DNA from: Anaerolineae bacterium
GTDB taxonomy: Bacteria > Chloroflexota > Anaerolineae > Aggregatilineales > Phototrophicaceae
Direction of reading: 5' to 3'
Assembly (NCBI GenBank): GCA_022843745.1
Contig: JALHNB010000004.1
Coordinates: 62,001-126,000 of the forward strand
Length of the DNA: 64,000 nt
This document shows positions 12,768 to 20,611 of this stretch, in pieces. The notes beneath the pieces were generated by a model. It saw nothing but the letters and a program-made list of their open reading frames with translations, was not told where the DNA came from and ran no database searches. The stretch's first letter is position 1. Each line of letters starts with the position of its first letter. The position numbers were made by a program, and so were the translations under genes.

Positions 12768-15188
12768 TTATGGCAGCGGTGATTGCATACCGTAGTTGCC
12801 ACCCACCAGTGCCAGATCACTGACATTAACGTTGGTATCGCTGTTCAGATCGGCATTGCCAGGGACACCTGAGCCTTGCAGCCCGAAGTTTGCACCGATG
12901 AAGGTAGCGTCCACAATGTCAATCTTGCCGTTGTTATCTGTATCACCTGCGTTCAGCAGCAGCTTACCTGCATCAACGGTTGTGCCGTTGGCCGTCACGT
13001 TGAGCTGAGCTACGGCAGGAATATGCTGTGGCGAACTTACCAAAACGCCGTAAGTACCAATCGCCAGGCCAGTGAAACTGAATTTGCCGTCAGCAGCCGT
13101 GATAACTTCGCCTACTTTGGTTCGATCTGCCCTGTACAGTTCGACCTTAATCCCTGCGTTACTGGCACGATTCTGGTACTCTGCGACACCGGAAATCGTG
13201 CTAAGGCGTGCCGGGTCAGGTGTAGGTGTGTTCGTCGGCACGGACACAGGCGGTACAGTCGGTGTTGATGTCGGCACCAGCGTTGGCGCGGCAACAGTTG
13301 GTTCTTCCGTCGTCACGGGCGGAGCCGAAGTATAGGTGGTGTTGACGACGTTGATTTGCAGGTCGCGGCCATTTTCATCAACGGCCAGCACCGTACAATT
13401 CAGCTTACCGTCGCCGTTGCCAATCACGCTGTAAGCCAGGGTAAAGGCCGTCGCGTTACCAGTGATGGGTGTATTTGGCTGGATACGGCTGGCCGCCACC
13501 ATCCACTTACCATCTGCCTTGAAGCCATTATCGACAAAGAAGCTGTTGCTACTACCGAAGCCATCGCCATCGGTGCGTGTGGTGCCTTTCAGGATCGCCG
13601 GATCCACCGCGCACTGCGCCTGTATACCATAGACATTGCTCACGTTATACAACTTCAGCGCAACATTGATCATCTGGCCTACTGTCGCATTCGGAGGATT
13701 GACCTCAACGACGATAGCTGCGCCTGTGGGCGGGGGCTGCGTCGGTGCAGGTGTGGTCGGGACAGGTGTCTGTGGCACAGTCGTCGGGACAGGTGTAGTC
13801 GGGACAGGTGTGGGGGTATGATCGGTGCCATGCCCTGCGCCTGTGTATTTTGTGAAGAACCAGGTATTCCATTTTTTCCCCGCTGGCGAGATATCATGAT
13901 CTGCCTTAGCACAACTATTGCAAGGGTTATGGAAATATTGCCCCTCTTTATTAGCGAACGTGTTTAGAACGATGTCATCATAGTGAACAGGTACACAGTC
14001 CAATGAAGCCTGCGTACATGAGGTCTTCAGTGACATACCAAATCGATCAGCATAACCCCTGAAATTGGTTCTGCCGTTACCGTCTGGGTCAATCTTAACG
14101 TTACCAGTATGTTGCCCATCGAAAAACTCAGGAATAGGGGTTACATAGCCGATAAAAGCTGAAGTGACAGTTTGATCGTAACGGCAGTTGACATCTGCCA
14201 ACGTGCAATTAAATTGCCATTGATCCGGTGCGTTTATATTGATATTTCCGATAGGGTCAAATGACCGAACCTGGAAGCGGAAGCGACCACGTGCAAGCCC
14301 CCACCATTCCATCAAAGGACGCGGGCTGGTCTGCGTCGGTAAAGGTGATTGGAGTATTGGATGGCAGCGAACCTCATCACGCGCTTCAGGCCGATCCAGG
14401 GGCATATAAAGGGTATCGGCAGGCAGCGGGACAAATGTTTGTCGCACGCCATTGCCACATTCCAATGATCCTGCGGGGGGGACAAGTAACTGTCCAAAAT
14501 CGATCCAGCCACCCAATCGAATCATACCGCATGTACTGGGATCGCTGGGCTTATTGCATAAACGGCCTTCATAGCTGTAGGAATGCCAGCGCACAACGGC
14601 ATCGTGTGCTCCAAAAATACCATGAAACTGCAAACGGAAATCCGTCGTACAAGCGCTATCCGTTGGGCATTGCTGGTCACGCCTTACGATCCAGATGTAA
14701 CCTTCGTGCTTGAGGTCATTTTCCATTTGCTTATTGGCGATGAACTGGGCATTCGATTCGGTAGCCGTCGCAGCCTTAAAGGTCTGCCAGGGATATGAGA
14801 TCGATTTTCCGGGTTGTCCAAAATAAGAGCCTGGTTCCCCAAAAAGATCGTTCACATAATTGGGATCATCGCCGTGATTATGGTCGAAATGGCAGCGGGC
14901 CTCGATATTGACCAGCGAATGCCATTTATTCGGGTCATGCTCCGCCGCTGTACAGGGGCGGTCATAAACACCTGCATTAATATCGGCGCGTACCCGATTC
15001 AGATTTCCCATATTGATGCCAATTTCCAGTCCGTCGCCTCTGCCCGTACCAAAATTGGATGTAGAGACGGCGCTTTGAGCCGAGGTACTCCACATAATCA
15101 GAAGGTTAGGGAGGATAACGGTAGCCACAATTAGGAATATCTTTTTCCAGCGTTTTGCTGAACCTACGAGACTTAATCTATTCTCCAT
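12768..15188 (-). CDS. Large secreted protein with cohesin and dockerin modules
   Basis: 806 residues: signal peptide or N-terminal anchor (about 14-38); a cysteine-containing region I do not recognise (about 40-455); a Pro/Thr linker (457-487); a cohesin-type module (about 489-622, VVEVNPPNATVGQMINVALKLYNVSNVYGIQ); a second linker (621-660); a carboxypeptidase-regulatory-like domain (663-745); and a C-terminal type I dockerin (746-806) with calcium loops DTDNNGKIDIVD and DLNSDTNVNVSD. Bearing both partner modules it could chain with itself or with the membrane cohesin and the small dockerin encoded downstream. GAGGAG lies 8 bases before the ATG. The N-terminal region has many Cys, His and aromatic residues but no catalytic motif I can name. 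Confidence 0.85.
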   Translation of the reverse strand: MENRLSLVGSAKRWKKIFLIVATVILPNLLIMWSTSAQSAVSTSNFGTGRGDGLEIGINMGNLNRVRADINAGVYDRPCTAAEHDPNKWHSLVNIEARCHFDHNHGDDPNYVNDLFGEPGSYFGQPGKSISYPWQTFKAATATESNAQFIANKQMENDLKHEGYIWIVRRDQQCPTDSACTTDFRLQFHGIFGAHDAVVRWHSYSYEGRLCNKPSDPSTCGMIRLGGWIDFGQLLVPPAGSLECGNGVRQTFVPLPADTLYMPLDRPEARDEVRCHPILQSPLPTQTSPRPLMEWWGLARGRFRFQVRSFDPIGNININAPDQWQFNCTLADVNCRYDQTVTSAFIGYVTPIPEFFDGQHTGNVKIDPDGNGRTNFRGYADRFGMSLKTSCTQASLDCVPVHYDDIVLNTFANKEGQYFHNPCNSCAKADHDISPAGKKWNTWFFTKYTGAGHGTDHTPTPVPTTPVPTTVPQTPVPTTPAPTQPPPTGAAIVVEVNPPNATVGQMINVALKLYNVSNVYGIQAQCAVDPAILKGTTRTDGDGFGSSNSFFVDNGFKADGKWMVAASRIQPNTPITGNATAFTLAYSVIGNGDGKLNCTVLAVDENGRDLQINVVNTTYTSAPPVTTEEPTVAAPTLVPTSTPTVPPVSVPTNTPTPDPARLSTISGVAEYQNRASNAGIKVELYRADRTKVGEVITAADGKFSFTGLAIGTYGVLVSSPQHIPAVAQLNVTANGTTVDAGKLLLNAGDTDNNGKIDIVDATFIGANFGLQGSGVPGNADLNSDTNVNVSDLALVGGNYGMQSPLP

Positions 15189-15535: not shown

Positions 15536-18500
15536 ATGCCACATTCTGACTTTTTATTTCGCGGGTATATTTCCGAGCTTGACCCGGATGTCGCCGAACT
15601 TATCCGGCACGAAACCGCGCGTCAGGCTCGCTACATTATTTTGATACCTTCCGAAAGCACGATTCCTGCTGCTGTGCGCGAGGCGCTGAGTTCCGCTTTC
15701 CATAATATTTATGCTGAAGGCTATCCACTGGACGAAACGCGCACCATGACCGAGGCGGAAATCCTCGATTACAACGCGCGTTTGCCGGAATATCGCCGAT
15801 TCGCCGATAAGCGCTATTACAAAGGCGTCGAGTATGCCAATATGCTCGAATCATTGGCGCGGCGGCGTGCGGCTGAACTATTCGCTACATCTCAATACTC
15901 CGCAGATCAACTCTTCGTCAATGTTCAGCCGCTTTCCGGCGCACCTGCCAACAATGCAATCTACACGGCGCTCCTTAATGTTGGCGATACGGTGATGGGC
16001 ATGGACTTAATTCAGGGTGGGCATCTTACGCACGGCAGCCCGGTCAACCGCAGCGGTATCAACTATAAAATTGTCAGCTATGGCATAAACCCCGAAACCG
16101 AACGTCTGGATTACGATCAGATCATGGCGCTGGCGAAAGAACATAAGCCCAGAATGATTATCGCAGGCTACAGCAGTTACCCATTTGCGCCGGATTTTCA
16201 TAAGTTCCGCGAGATCGCGAACGCGGTTGGCGCTTATCTGATGGCGGACATCGCTCATGTCGCTGGGTTGACCATTGCTGGTGAATATCCTAATCCGGTT
16301 GGCATCGCCGATGTCGTCAATTTCACGACGCATAAAACGCTGGCTGGGCCGCGTGGTGCAATCGTCATCACCCACCGCGCCGATCTAGCTGCCAAAATTG
16401 ACCGTGCGGTTTTCCCTGGCGAACAGGGCGGCCCGCATATGAACACCATCGCGGCGATGGCTGTCGCGCTCCGGCTGGCACACAGCGATCAATTTAAGCA
16501 ATTGCAGAAGCAAACTGTGCGGAACGCGGCACGGCTGGCGCAAAAATTGACCGAACATGGCCTCCACGTTCCCTATGGTGGTACGGATACGCATTTAATG
16601 GTGGTCGATTGCAAAAGTGTTGTCGGTCCTGACGGCACGACCTTGAGCGGCGATATGGCGGCGCGTATTCTCGATCTGACCGGAATCGTGCTGAATCGTC
16701 AAACTATTCCCGGCGATACAGGAGCGCTGCGGCCTTCCGGCATCCGCATCGGTACGCCCTGGATCACCCAGCGCGGATTTGGCGATGCTGAAATCGACAA
16801 ACTGGCCGAAATTATCGCACGAGTCTTGAAAGCTTGTGTACCTTTTAGCTACAGTGGCAAGCGGCGACCAGAACCCCGCGCGAAAATTGATTTTGACGTA
16901 TTGCAGCAGGCGAAAATAGATGTGCGCGATCTGGCAGCGAGTGTCGGCATTGATACCGATGCCACAGCCGACGCTTATCCACACTTCTATTATATGGAGA
17001 GCGACCCCGCAGCACGTGCATGGCAAACGCTGGCGATTAAAGGCGAATTGGCTGAATCATTCCTGAATACCGTCCTCACCAGCGATGTACTCGTGCTCCA
17101 ACCGGGCGACCAACAGCCAACATGGGTGCTTGGCGCGGACGGCGCACCGATCACGCGCGGCGTTTTGCAGCACACAGAGGACGGCTATCTACTGAATATC
17201 GCTCAAAATACCAATCGCGTCGCGGCGTGGCTGCGGGCTTTGTCCGATGGCTTTGCACTGTTCGATTCAAGCGATCCCTATGCCAAAGTTCCCGGCCCGG
17301 TGGATGTGCAAGTCATTGGTGCGGCACTAACCGATCAATTGACCGTTGATACCCATCGTGATTGGCCGGAAGGCACAGGTTATGCGCAAAAAGCCTATTT
17401 CATCGGCATCAATGGTGCGCCAAAAGCTGCGCCGCTGCCCGCTTTTAATTGGCAAGAACCGCAAATTAATGAACTCAAGACAACGCCGCTTCACGCGCTG
17501 CATAAAGAATTGAACGCGAAAATGGTCGAGTTCGCCGGATACGATATGCCTGTCTGGTACACTTCTGTAACCGAAGAACATCAGGCCGTGCGCATTCATG
17601 CAGGCATTTTCGATGTGACACATATGGGTGTTTTCGATGCCAAAGGCCAAGGCGCGGCGGCTTTTCTGGATACCGTCACGACCAACGATGTCGCAAAACT
17701 GGCAATTGGCGATTCGCACTACACCTATTTTCTGGATACCAACGGCATCCCATTTGACGACCTGATGATCTATCGTATGGCAGCCGATCATTTCCTCATC
17801 GTCGTGAATGCCTCCAATAACGACAAAAACTGGGCATGGCTCAACGCGGTAAAAGACGGCATGGTCATGATCGACTCCGCCGACCCCGGACGGCGCATCG
17901 AGGGCGCGGATCGCTTTGTCCTACGCGATTTACGCGCCGCTTCGTCAGGGGCGGATCAACGAGTAGACATCGCGCTGCAAGGGCCAGATAGCAAAAATAT
18001 TTTGCTCTCGCTGGGCGGCAGCGAAGAAGCCAAAGCCAAAATTAACGCACTCACATGGGCGAACGTGGCGCATGTCAACCTCGGCGGCTATGATTTGATC
18101 GTCTCGCGCACGGGCTACACGGGTGAACGTGTCGCTTATGAATTGTTCGTCCATCCTGACCGCGCCGCGCAGTTGTTCCGCGAGTTAATTTTGCACCATG
18201 CGACTCCCTGCGGATTAGCCGCCCGCGACAGTCTGCGCACCGAGGCCGGGCTGCCGCTTTATGGTCACGAACTCGCCGGGCCGCTGAATCTCAACCCTGC
18301 CGATGCCGGATTTAGCAATTACGTCAAATTGTGGAAGCCATTCTTCGTCGGTAAACCCGCCTACATCGCTCACGAACGCGAACGCGATGCCGAAATCGCG
18401 CGTTTCCGTCTGGATGTGAAGGGCGCACGTCCAGCGCACCAGGGCGACCCGGTAATCGACAAAAAAGGCCGCGTGGTTGGCATCGTCGCCAGTTGTAGCA

Positions 18501-18700
18501 TCGACGGTGATGGCTATCAAACCGGACAGGCTTATCTGAAGGCCGAATTTGGCGCGGAAAATACGCAGATCGCCGTATTCGCGGGTTCTGCCCGAACAAA
18601 AAGTGGCAAAGCCATCGTTGAGTTAGCGCTTGGCGACAAAATCCCGATGCCCGAACCGGCAACGGTGCTGAGCCGCTTCCCGAAAGCAAAGAAGAAGTAG
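15536..18700 (+). CDS. Serine hydroxymethyltransferase fused to aminomethyltransferase (GlyA-GcvT)
   Basis: A single 1054-residue chain. Residues 1 to about 440 are serine hydroxymethyltransferase (serine + THF to glycine + methylene-THF): IPSESTIPAAVREA, PLSGAPANNAIYTAL, DIAHVAGL and the PLP lysine K267 in FTTHKTLAGPRG. A 27-residue insertion (about 65-91) separates IYAEGYP from KRYYKG, which adjoin in ordinary SHMT. Residues about 650-1050 are GcvT, the T-protein of the glycine cleavage system: VEFAGYDMPVWY, IFDVTHMGVF, GYTGERVAYELFV, GLAARDSLRTEAGLPLYGHEL. Between them, residues about 498-582 look like a decayed copy of the GcvT N-terminal subdomain. Both enzymes handle THF one-carbon units and glycine, so fusion could link them. 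AGGA lies 7 bases before the ATG. GcvP, GcvH and Lpd are not in the window. Confidence 0.93.
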   Translation: MPHSDFLFRGYISELDPDVAELIRHETARQARYIILIPSESTIPAAVREALSSAFHNIYAEGYPLDETRTMTEAEILDYNARLPEYRRFADKRYYKGVEYANMLESLARRRAAELFATSQYSADQLFVNVQPLSGAPANNAIYTALLNVGDTVMGMDLIQGGHLTHGSPVNRSGINYKIVSYGINPETERLDYDQIMALAKEHKPRMIIAGYSSYPFAPDFHKFREIANAVGAYLMADIAHVAGLTIAGEYPNPVGIADVVNFTTHKTLAGPRGAIVITHRADLAAKIDRAVFPGEQGGPHMNTIAAMAVALRLAHSDQFKQLQKQTVRNAARLAQKLTEHGLHVPYGGTDTHLMVVDCKSVVGPDGTTLSGDMAARILDLTGIVLNRQTIPGDTGALRPSGIRIGTPWITQRGFGDAEIDKLAEIIARVLKACVPFSYSGKRRPEPRAKIDFDVLQQAKIDVRDLAASVGIDTDATADAYPHFYYMESDPAARAWQTLAIKGELAESFLNTVLTSDVLVLQPGDQQPTWVLGADGAPITRGVLQHTEDGYLLNIAQNTNRVAAWLRALSDGFALFDSSDPYAKVPGPVDVQVIGAALTDQLTVDTHRDWPEGTGYAQKAYFIGINGAPKAAPLPAFNWQEPQINELKTTPLHALHKELNAKMVEFAGYDMPVWYTSVTEEHQAVRIHAGIFDVTHMGVFDAKGQGAAAFLDTVTTNDVAKLAIGDSHYTYFLDTNGIPFDDLMIYRMAADHFLIVVNASNNDKNWAWLNAVKDGMVMIDSADPGRRIEGADRFVLRDLRAASSGADQRVDIALQGPDSKNILLSLGGSEEAKAKINALTWANVAHVNLGGYDLIVSRTGYTGERVAYELFVHPDRAAQLFRELILHHATPCGLAARDSLRTEAGLPLYGHELAGPLNLNPADAGFSNYVKLWKPFFVGKPAYIAHERERDAEIARFRLDVKGARPAHQGDPVIDKKGRVVGIVASCSIDGDGYQTGQAYLKAEFGAENTQIAVFAGSARTKSGKAIVELALGDKIPMPEPATVLSRFPKAKKK

Positions 18701-18767: not shown

Positions 18768-18847
18768 TACACTTTGGAAAGCAACCTGACACTCATAAGG
18801 TTGTATAATCAATACAAATATGATGTTCGGGTTTGATTGGAGAATTG

Positions 18848-20611
18848 ATGATCCCTTTTCGCATATTGTTCCTTGTCATGCTGCTGAGTTTATTCACGAT
18901 TCGGCCAGCCCAAGCGGCAGGCGTAGTCATAGATTGTACGCAATATGGCCCCGGCGCAGGCACATTGCAAGATGAACTTGCCAGCGGCGGCACGATTACC
19001 TTTACGTGCAGCGGGACAATCATCGTTCCGGAAATCATCATTTCGCAAGATACGACCATTGATGGTACTGGGCAGGATGTGACCTTAAGTGGAAATAATG
19101 CCAATCAGGTTTTTTATGTCAATGCTGATATAACCCTTAATTTGCATTCACTAACGATTACTGAGGGATATGATCGGGACATAACGGCTATCGAAAGTTA
19201 CGGCACATTAACGATTACCGACAGTAGAATATCCCACAATAACGGCCCTTTTGTCATCCAGAGCGAAGGGCCAACGACAATCCTCCGTACAATCATATCG
19301 AACAATGAAGGAACCGGTATACGCGCATTTGATACACTTCACATTATTGACAGCGAGATATCTGACAATACTCAACCAAGCACCATAGCCGATGGAGGCG
19401 CTGTATTTGCTGAAGATAATTTAACTATTGTCAACAGTGTGATTGCGAACAACAGCACCGCTTCTAACGGCGGCGGGATCACTTTTGGGCTTGGCGATAC
19501 TCTGACAATTAGTGACAGTTCGTTCATTGGCAATTCGGCTGACCTGATTGGCGGCGCAATATTTGCCCTTTGTTCAGATGCGAATGTGACAATCACCAAC
19601 AGTACATTCTTTGATAACTCCGCTTTATACGGCGGCGCCATCGTTAACACTTGCAACCTACTATCCACCAATAATACATTTCTAGAAAACACGTCTTCTT
19701 GGCCTAATCGTTCCGAAACGATTCACAATTGGACTCATGGGGTCGCTACCTTTAGAAACACAATTATTGCGGGGATCGCAGATGGTCCTCATTGTGAGAA
19801 TTGGCAAGAATTCGATGGCACAGCTAATAATCTGGCTACCGACGATTCGTGCCCTGGCTTTACGCAAACGACATTGGGCGATTTAAAACTTGGAACCCAA
19901 GAAGGTGATCCTGTCTATTTTCCGCTTTTAACCGGCAGTCTAGCCATTGATAGTGGAAATTACGAAGCATGTCCCCTTACTGATCAGCGTGGGATCAGCC
20001 GTCCACAGGGGTTTGCATGTGATGTCGGCGCATATGAATATGAACCCGAACAATCCCTTTCACAGCCTGTACTGAATACTCCATCAGATGGTTTTTCGAC
20101 AAGCAACGCCCAGACTCAATTCACCTGGAATCCGGTTGATAACGCAACGGGTTACCAGTTCCAAATCGGCACAACCAACCCTCCGACTTCGCGGCCTCAT
20201 TTTATAAGTACAACGAGCTATACTTCAGTTTTGCTAACGACTACTTACTATTGGCGTGTGCGGGGAATTCAACAAGATGAAGATACGATTTCACCCTGGA
20301 GTGAAATACGCTCTCTGACCATTGAAGCGCAGCCGGATGCCGTGCCATTAAGCAATATATTCACGACTTTAACGCCACATTTAACATGGAATAAAATCAC
20401 CTGGGCAACTGGATATGAAGTCCACGTCAGCGCAGATTCGAATTTCAGCAGTCTTAACTTTCAAAATAATACGCTTGCCTTCTATAATTTATCGGTCACA
20501 ACCTCGCAACTTGGGAATAATGTTTATTATTGGCGCGTCCGAGCCAAACGTCAGAACGGCACTTGGGGAGATTGGGGTGCTGTTCAAAGATTCGTTGTAA
20601 GTGTGCCATAA
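18848..20611 (+). CDS. Secreted beta-helix repeat protein with fibronectin-like tail
   Basis: 587 residues from the ATG preceded by GGAG at 5 bases. A signal peptide (ending AQAAG) is followed by a right-handed parallel beta-helix region built of short repeats such as LTITDSRISHN, IVNSVIANNSTASNGGG and ITNSTFFDNSALYGG, typical of polymorphic-membrane-protein and choice-of-anchor surface proteins. The helix is capped by the familiar ending ACPLTDQRGISRPQG...CDVGAYEYEP. Two Trp-rich beta-sandwich repeats follow (FTWNPVDNATGYQFQI; LTWNKITWATGYEVHV), each resembling fibronectin type III. No anchor or sorting signal is visible. Likely an adhesin-like or polysaccharide-binding surface protein. Confidence 0.78.
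   Translation: MIPFRILFLVMLLSLFTIRPAQAAGVVIDCTQYGPGAGTLQDELASGGTITFTCSGTIIVPEIIISQDTTIDGTGQDVTLSGNNANQVFYVNADITLNLHSLTITEGYDRDITAIESYGTLTITDSRISHNNGPFVIQSEGPTTILRTIISNNEGTGIRAFDTLHIIDSEISDNTQPSTIADGGAVFAEDNLTIVNSVIANNSTASNGGGITFGLGDTLTISDSSFIGNSADLIGGAIFALCSDANVTITNSTFFDNSALYGGAIVNTCNLLSTNNTFLENTSSWPNRSETIHNWTHGVATFRNTIIAGIADGPHCENWQEFDGTANNLATDDSCPGFTQTTLGDLKLGTQEGDPVYFPLLTGSLAIDSGNYEACPLTDQRGISRPQGFACDVGAYEYEPEQSLSQPVLNTPSDGFSTSNAQTQFTWNPVDNATGYQFQIGTTNPPTSRPHFISTTSYTSVLLTTTYYWRVRGIQQDEDTISPWSEIRSLTIEAQPDAVPLSNIFTTLTPHLTWNKITWATGYEVHVSADSNFSSLNFQNNTLAFYNLSVTTSQLGNNVYYWRVRAKRQNGTWGDWGAVQRFVVSVP

Follow-up and report, generated by a model that had tools for sequence, protein, structure and literature searches.

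A remnant GcvT domain in the connector of a predicted bifunctional SHMT-GcvT fusion of Chloroflexota, probably kept as a structural module

Here we describe a predicted bifunctional one-carbon enzyme with an N-terminal SHMT and a C-terminal GcvT, encoded in a stretch of 64,000 nucleotides from an Anaerolineae bacterium (the window). The connector between the two enzymes contains the reduced first copy of a former tandem GcvT, an ancestry well supported by trees and structure models, and this piece has probably been kept as a non-catalytic structural or docking module; we put the probability of this reading at roughly 0.6. Two central folate enzymes are joined in a large part of the phylum, and in this cell the fusion is the only SHMT. 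It offers a natural test of methylene-THF channelling between glycine cleavage and serine synthesis, which bears on glycine-based one-carbon assimilation. Its relatives still show how a duplicated enzyme becomes a non-catalytic part, in stages that run from a near-complete second GcvT to one subdomain, and the same domain appears to have been lost in parallel at least five times on the way. The features are as follows, in window coordinates.

15536..18700, + strand: SHMT-connector-GcvT fusion gene, 1054 aa, stop included, single open reading frame
15536..16957, + strand: SHMT part, residues 1-474 (Pfam SHMT, VIA structure match, active-site mapping)
16334..16336, + strand: PLP lysine codon, K267, equivalent to E. 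coli GlyA K229, identical in 133/133 fusions
17012..17323, + strand: connector remnant of GcvT domain 2, residues ~493-596 (Pfam, BLASTP, AF2, Foldseek, VIA)
17039-17296, + strand: strong GcvT match, residues 502-587 (BLASTP to the protein's own GcvT)
17153..17155, + strand: Thr540 codon, at the site of the catalytic Asp in GcvT (E. coli D97; alignment)
17228..17251, + strand: WLRALSDG motif, residues 565-572, conserved more in connectors than in working GcvT
17390..17407, + strand: KAYFIG, residues 619-624, remnant of the motif that starts domain 3 (working copy: KPFFVG)
17471..18688, + strand: working GcvT part, residues 646-1051 (Pfam GCV_T E 2.5e-76, VIA)
17756..17758, + strand: catalytic Asp741 of the working GcvT, equivalent to E. 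coli D97 (alignment)

The gene is present as the earlier note had described it, a forward-strand open reading frame for an SHMT-GcvT fusion. Its product consists of SHMT (residues 1 to ~474), a connector (~475-645) and GcvT (646-1051); Pfam recognizes SHMT with E 2.8e-125 and GCV_T in two stretches. The linker named in that note exists, but its limits had to be moved to ~475-645, since the SHMT structure runs to ~474. The full-length AF2 model, computed as a single chain although SHMT usually functions as a dimer or tetramer, has a mean pLDDT of 89.8 and a pTM of 0.87, the latter suggesting a defined placement of the domains. An assembly join of two genes is ruled out, because most close relatives share this fused frame (the connector is matched in 54 of 61 genomes), as do 69 complete fusions on independent contigs.

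The architecture, which the earlier note had proposed to look for in other Chloroflexota, is thus common among close relatives. The phylum tally of 73 out of 301 genomes includes about a dozen weak matches to stand-alone GcvTs in ~400-aa frames; with these discounted, about 60 of the 301 genomes carry true fusions. A scan of the genome collection for the connector motif delivered 421 confirmed relatives, and the 80 that were kept, 69 of which are complete and are full fusions, all have Chloroflexota-type titles. Within this order and class, SHMT and GcvT also occur unfused, in other families. Three genomes of the family f10 (G097, G321 and G212; L059, L061 and L053) encode SHMT joined to domain 2 (D2) as stand-alone proteins of 591-612 aa that stop just past D2, with GcvT encoded apart, by a neighbouring gene in G212 and on a different contig in G097 and G321. 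Genomes G071 and G252 hold two fusion genes each, in G071 one long and one shorter form; these could be paralogues or the product of a mixed bin.

Residues ~10-474 match SHMT structures in VIA (Z 37, 1.5 A), and the NF000586 profile scores 441 bits against a cut-off of 335. The E. coli GlyA residues E57, H126, D200, H203, K229 and R363 correspond to E61, H163, D238, H241, K267 and R404 of the fusion; the last five are identical in all 133 fusions and E61 in 132 of them, with one gap. In sequence, fold and retained active-site residues the part therefore resembles SHMT (PF00464) as known elsewhere, whereas the GcvT-derived domain and the GcvT at its C-terminal side set the fusion, the genome's only SHMT, apart. 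An insertion following the motif YAEGYP (residues ~65-92, window ~15728-15811), adjoining the active site, is present in the fusions aligned and absent from E. coli GlyA.

The C-terminal part (~646-1051) matches GcvT (PF01571/PF08669, TIGR00528) over its full length of three domains: TIGR00528 gives 237.6 bits against a cut-off of 235.85, and VIA aligns 352 residues to the T. maritima T-protein at Z 45.7 and 1.6 A. The catalytic Asp is kept, here and in 130 of 133 fusions. This part differs from other GcvTs in that SHMT and a reduced GcvT copy precede it on one chain, and the fused GcvTs form a clade apart from the stand-alone Chloroflexota GcvTs. The genes gcvH, gcvPA and gcvPB are clustered on another contig without gcvT. 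GCV_T proteins elsewhere in the genome are limited to one of SoxA-like type, a short frame next to that one, and a divergent protein of 371 aa; the fused GcvT is therefore probably the working T-protein. In two divergent fusions, L078 (G176) and L079 (G165), the C-terminal GcvT is long-branched and the D97-equivalent position is not Asp; their second copy may be losing activity too.

The similarity between the linker and the protein's own GcvT segment, on which the earlier note was built, is confirmed by BLASTP, in which connector residues 502-587 align to residues 703-790 with 32/88 identical (36%) and 50/88 similar positions (55.5 bits, E 2e-14). Chance similarity is ruled out by the shuffle test: the Smith-Waterman score is 136, whereas 2000 shuffles average 32 (standard deviation 5) and never exceed 61. 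Window positions 17000-17420, submitted alone to hmmscan, match Pfam GCV_T positions 50-155 with 27.8 bits (E 1.8e-6), above the curated cut-off of 25.6, and in the PDB a family profile picks up GcvT-superfamily chains only, with 1yx2 as the best match (E 4e-11).

The fold agrees with this result. AF2 modelled the connector alone, from 56 aligned sequences, with a pLDDT of 89.8 and a pTM of 0.86, which rules out an unfolded linker. GcvT heads the Foldseek matches of the model (1.5e-6), the leading ones all being of the GcvT superfamily, and in VIA the model matches 32 GcvT-superfamily entries at Z 8.6-12.7, followed by the next match at Z 5.9; the linker is thus predicted to have the GcvT-like fold whose absence would have spoken against the earlier note. 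The tail of the model (to ~634) aligns at GcvT chain positions ~276-287 in most T-protein entries, and in the relative G268 it aligns directly to GcvT 276-307. A second remnant, KAYFIG, hence lies downstream of the segment noted earlier, and the connector comprises GcvT domain 2 and the first motif of domain 3, without domain 1, the barrel or the catalytic Asp. Judged from its sequence, with Thr540 in place of Asp and domains 1 and 3 missing, the piece is non-catalytic. An Asp equivalent to D97 occurs in 2 of 133 connectors (L065 and L066) and is lost in the other 131.

These two proteins retain the tandem stage through which, according to the earlier note, the fusion had passed. In L066 (1252 aa) SHMT is followed by a first GcvT (Pfam 2-237, E 2e-44), which aligns to positions 2-299 of the window's GcvT, and then by a second GcvT; L065 (1283 aa) has a near-complete first GcvT (Pfam 31-229, E 2e-21) between SHMT and the second. 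Both first copies end at KPYF[IV]G, the same motif that ends the window's connector, and the barrel is missing from every first copy seen. The spacing from SHMT to GcvT is 371 residues in L066 and 346 in L065, then 308, 283 and about 200 in most; L070 and L072 appear, by eye, to retain vestiges of domain 1.

In the GcvT tree (412 columns) the L065 and L066 first copies form one clade (99/98) within the fused-GcvT clade (98/99), distant from stand-alone GcvTs and from SoxA-like and other divergent GCV_T rows. A recent re-duplication in L065 and L066 is ruled out, as their first copies group together and not with their own second copies. The separate GcvTs of f10 nest among the fused second copies, which points to gene fission. 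A tree of D2 only, with few columns (93) and moderate support, places all connectors and both first copies in one group (85/96) adjoining the second copies. In the SHMT tree the fused SHMTs are monophyletic (98/97), and the deepest split of their clade separates L066 from L065, which argues that the long form is ancestral. Taken together, the trees indicate that the fusion arose once and GcvT was duplicated once, and that domain 1 was lost in parallel at least five times, namely in L058; in L078/L079/L082; in L069; in L067/L072/L080; and in the main Anaerolineae group. This count is our reading of the well-supported branches and assumes that domain 1 was never regained.

In 25 close pairs, pooled dN/dS amounts to 0.084 in SHMT and 0.109 in GcvT, compared with 0.174 in connector domain 2 and 0.291 in the connector tail; the values are approximate, as one genome pair was counted twice (L020/L021 = L176/L177) and some dS exceed 1. 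Connector domain 2 is under purifying selection. In sequences selected without the motif, WLRxLSDG is nearly fixed in the connector (R in 53, S in 62 and D in 61 of 64), whereas the working GcvT is variable at the equivalent columns (N/E/T, K/R/N and D/E/N), which indicates that the remnant has gained a constraint of its own. In the motif-scan set its conservation of 90-100% is inflated, because the scan itself searched for the motif. The copy described earlier as decayed has therefore lost catalysis and domain 1 but is held under selection, with its own conserved motif.

SHMT interconverts glycine plus 5,10-methylene-THF and serine plus THF, and GcvT transfers the aminomethyl group on H-protein to THF, giving methylene-THF. 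The GcvT part would thus make the methylene-THF that the SHMT part uses, and because both activities meet at this compound, local transfer and a fixed stoichiometry are possible. As sequences, trees and predicted structure show, the ancestor carried SHMT followed by two GcvTs, the first of which lost its catalytic Asp and, independently in several lineages, domain 1; domain 2 and the domain-3 start motif were retained. The remnant would pack against SHMT as a non-catalytic structural or docking module and fix the position of GcvT, a placement that may let the two active sites exchange methylene-THF and THF locally, and the fusion would ensure that the two activities are produced one to one. 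Only tentatively do we go further and suggest that the duplicated domain was convergently trimmed into a dedicated docking part, in a unit that hands methylene-THF directly to serine synthesis.

The three f10 genomes count against the docking reading, as their GcvT is separate from the SHMT-D2 protein, so that not every lineage depends on covalent coupling. The same proteins support the main rival, namely that the connector domain mainly serves the SHMT part, in stability or oligomerisation, and that GcvT is attached incidentally; these proteins retain D2 and stop shortly behind it. They come from a single family, however, and elsewhere D2 lies between both enzymes with the domain-3 motif kept too, and we regard this rival as rather unlikely. 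A pure tether, one of the roles raised in the earlier note, is disfavoured for the same reason, since a piece that remains on SHMT after the separation of GcvT must do more than tether; dimerising and channelling, raised there too, are candidate roles. That the connector is a neutral relic or passive spacer, its role limited to linking, would fit the loss of the catalytic Asp in nearly all connectors, the repeated loss of domain 1 and an evolution faster than that of SHMT or GcvT. With an omega of 0.17, well under 1, a WLRxLSDG stretch more constrained than its counterpart in the working GcvT, a domain kept after fission and a confident fold, this is improbable.

An auxiliary folate site or an H-protein docking site could be expected from the descent from a folate enzyme and the retained domain-2 fold. 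GcvT domains 1 and 3 help to form the folate cavity, and a lone domain 2, with no Asp and only one of the three domains lining that cavity, is unlikely to bind a ligand. Docking of H-protein fits no better, as in a simulated E. coli H-T complex it is T-protein domains 1 and 3 that move elements of H-protein (PMC7733448), and both are missing here; we consider either function quite improbable. An origin from another GcvT-fold protein (YgfZ/IBA57-like or sarcosine-oxidase-like) in place of a GcvT duplication is suggested by YgfZ and DMGDH, which are among the fold matches with comparable Z. The nearest sequence match is nevertheless GcvT (E 4e-11), with YgfZ at E 0.3 only, the trees, although built without reference YgfZ, favour GcvT, and the long first copies fall within the fused-GcvT clade and away from the SoxA-like rows, which makes this origin scarcely credible. 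The structural or docking module in a bifunctional SHMT-GcvT is the reading we prefer.

In DMGDH, sarcosine oxidase alpha and TMAO demethylase a single GcvT module is attached to an oxidase or demethylase. These enzymes are among the fold matches and resemble the fusion in having a GcvT-like module on an enzyme that feeds it one-carbon units, and differ from it in that the partner here is SHMT and a second, reduced GcvT copy is present. Nothing relevant was found on an SHMT-GcvT or GlyA-GcvT fusion in a search of open-licence papers, weak evidence of absence; PMC5715807 concerns other fusions.

A secreted-looking protein is encoded on either side of the fusion gene. Window 12768-15188 (- strand) encodes 806 aa with a carboxypeptidase-regulatory-like domain and, on the same chain, cohesin-like (493-591) and dockerin-like (746-794) segments, both weak and under the Pfam cut-offs. 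Window 18833-20611 (+ strand) encodes 592 aa with parallel-beta-helix-like repeats followed by fibronectin/Ig-like segments and a single weak Pfam match.
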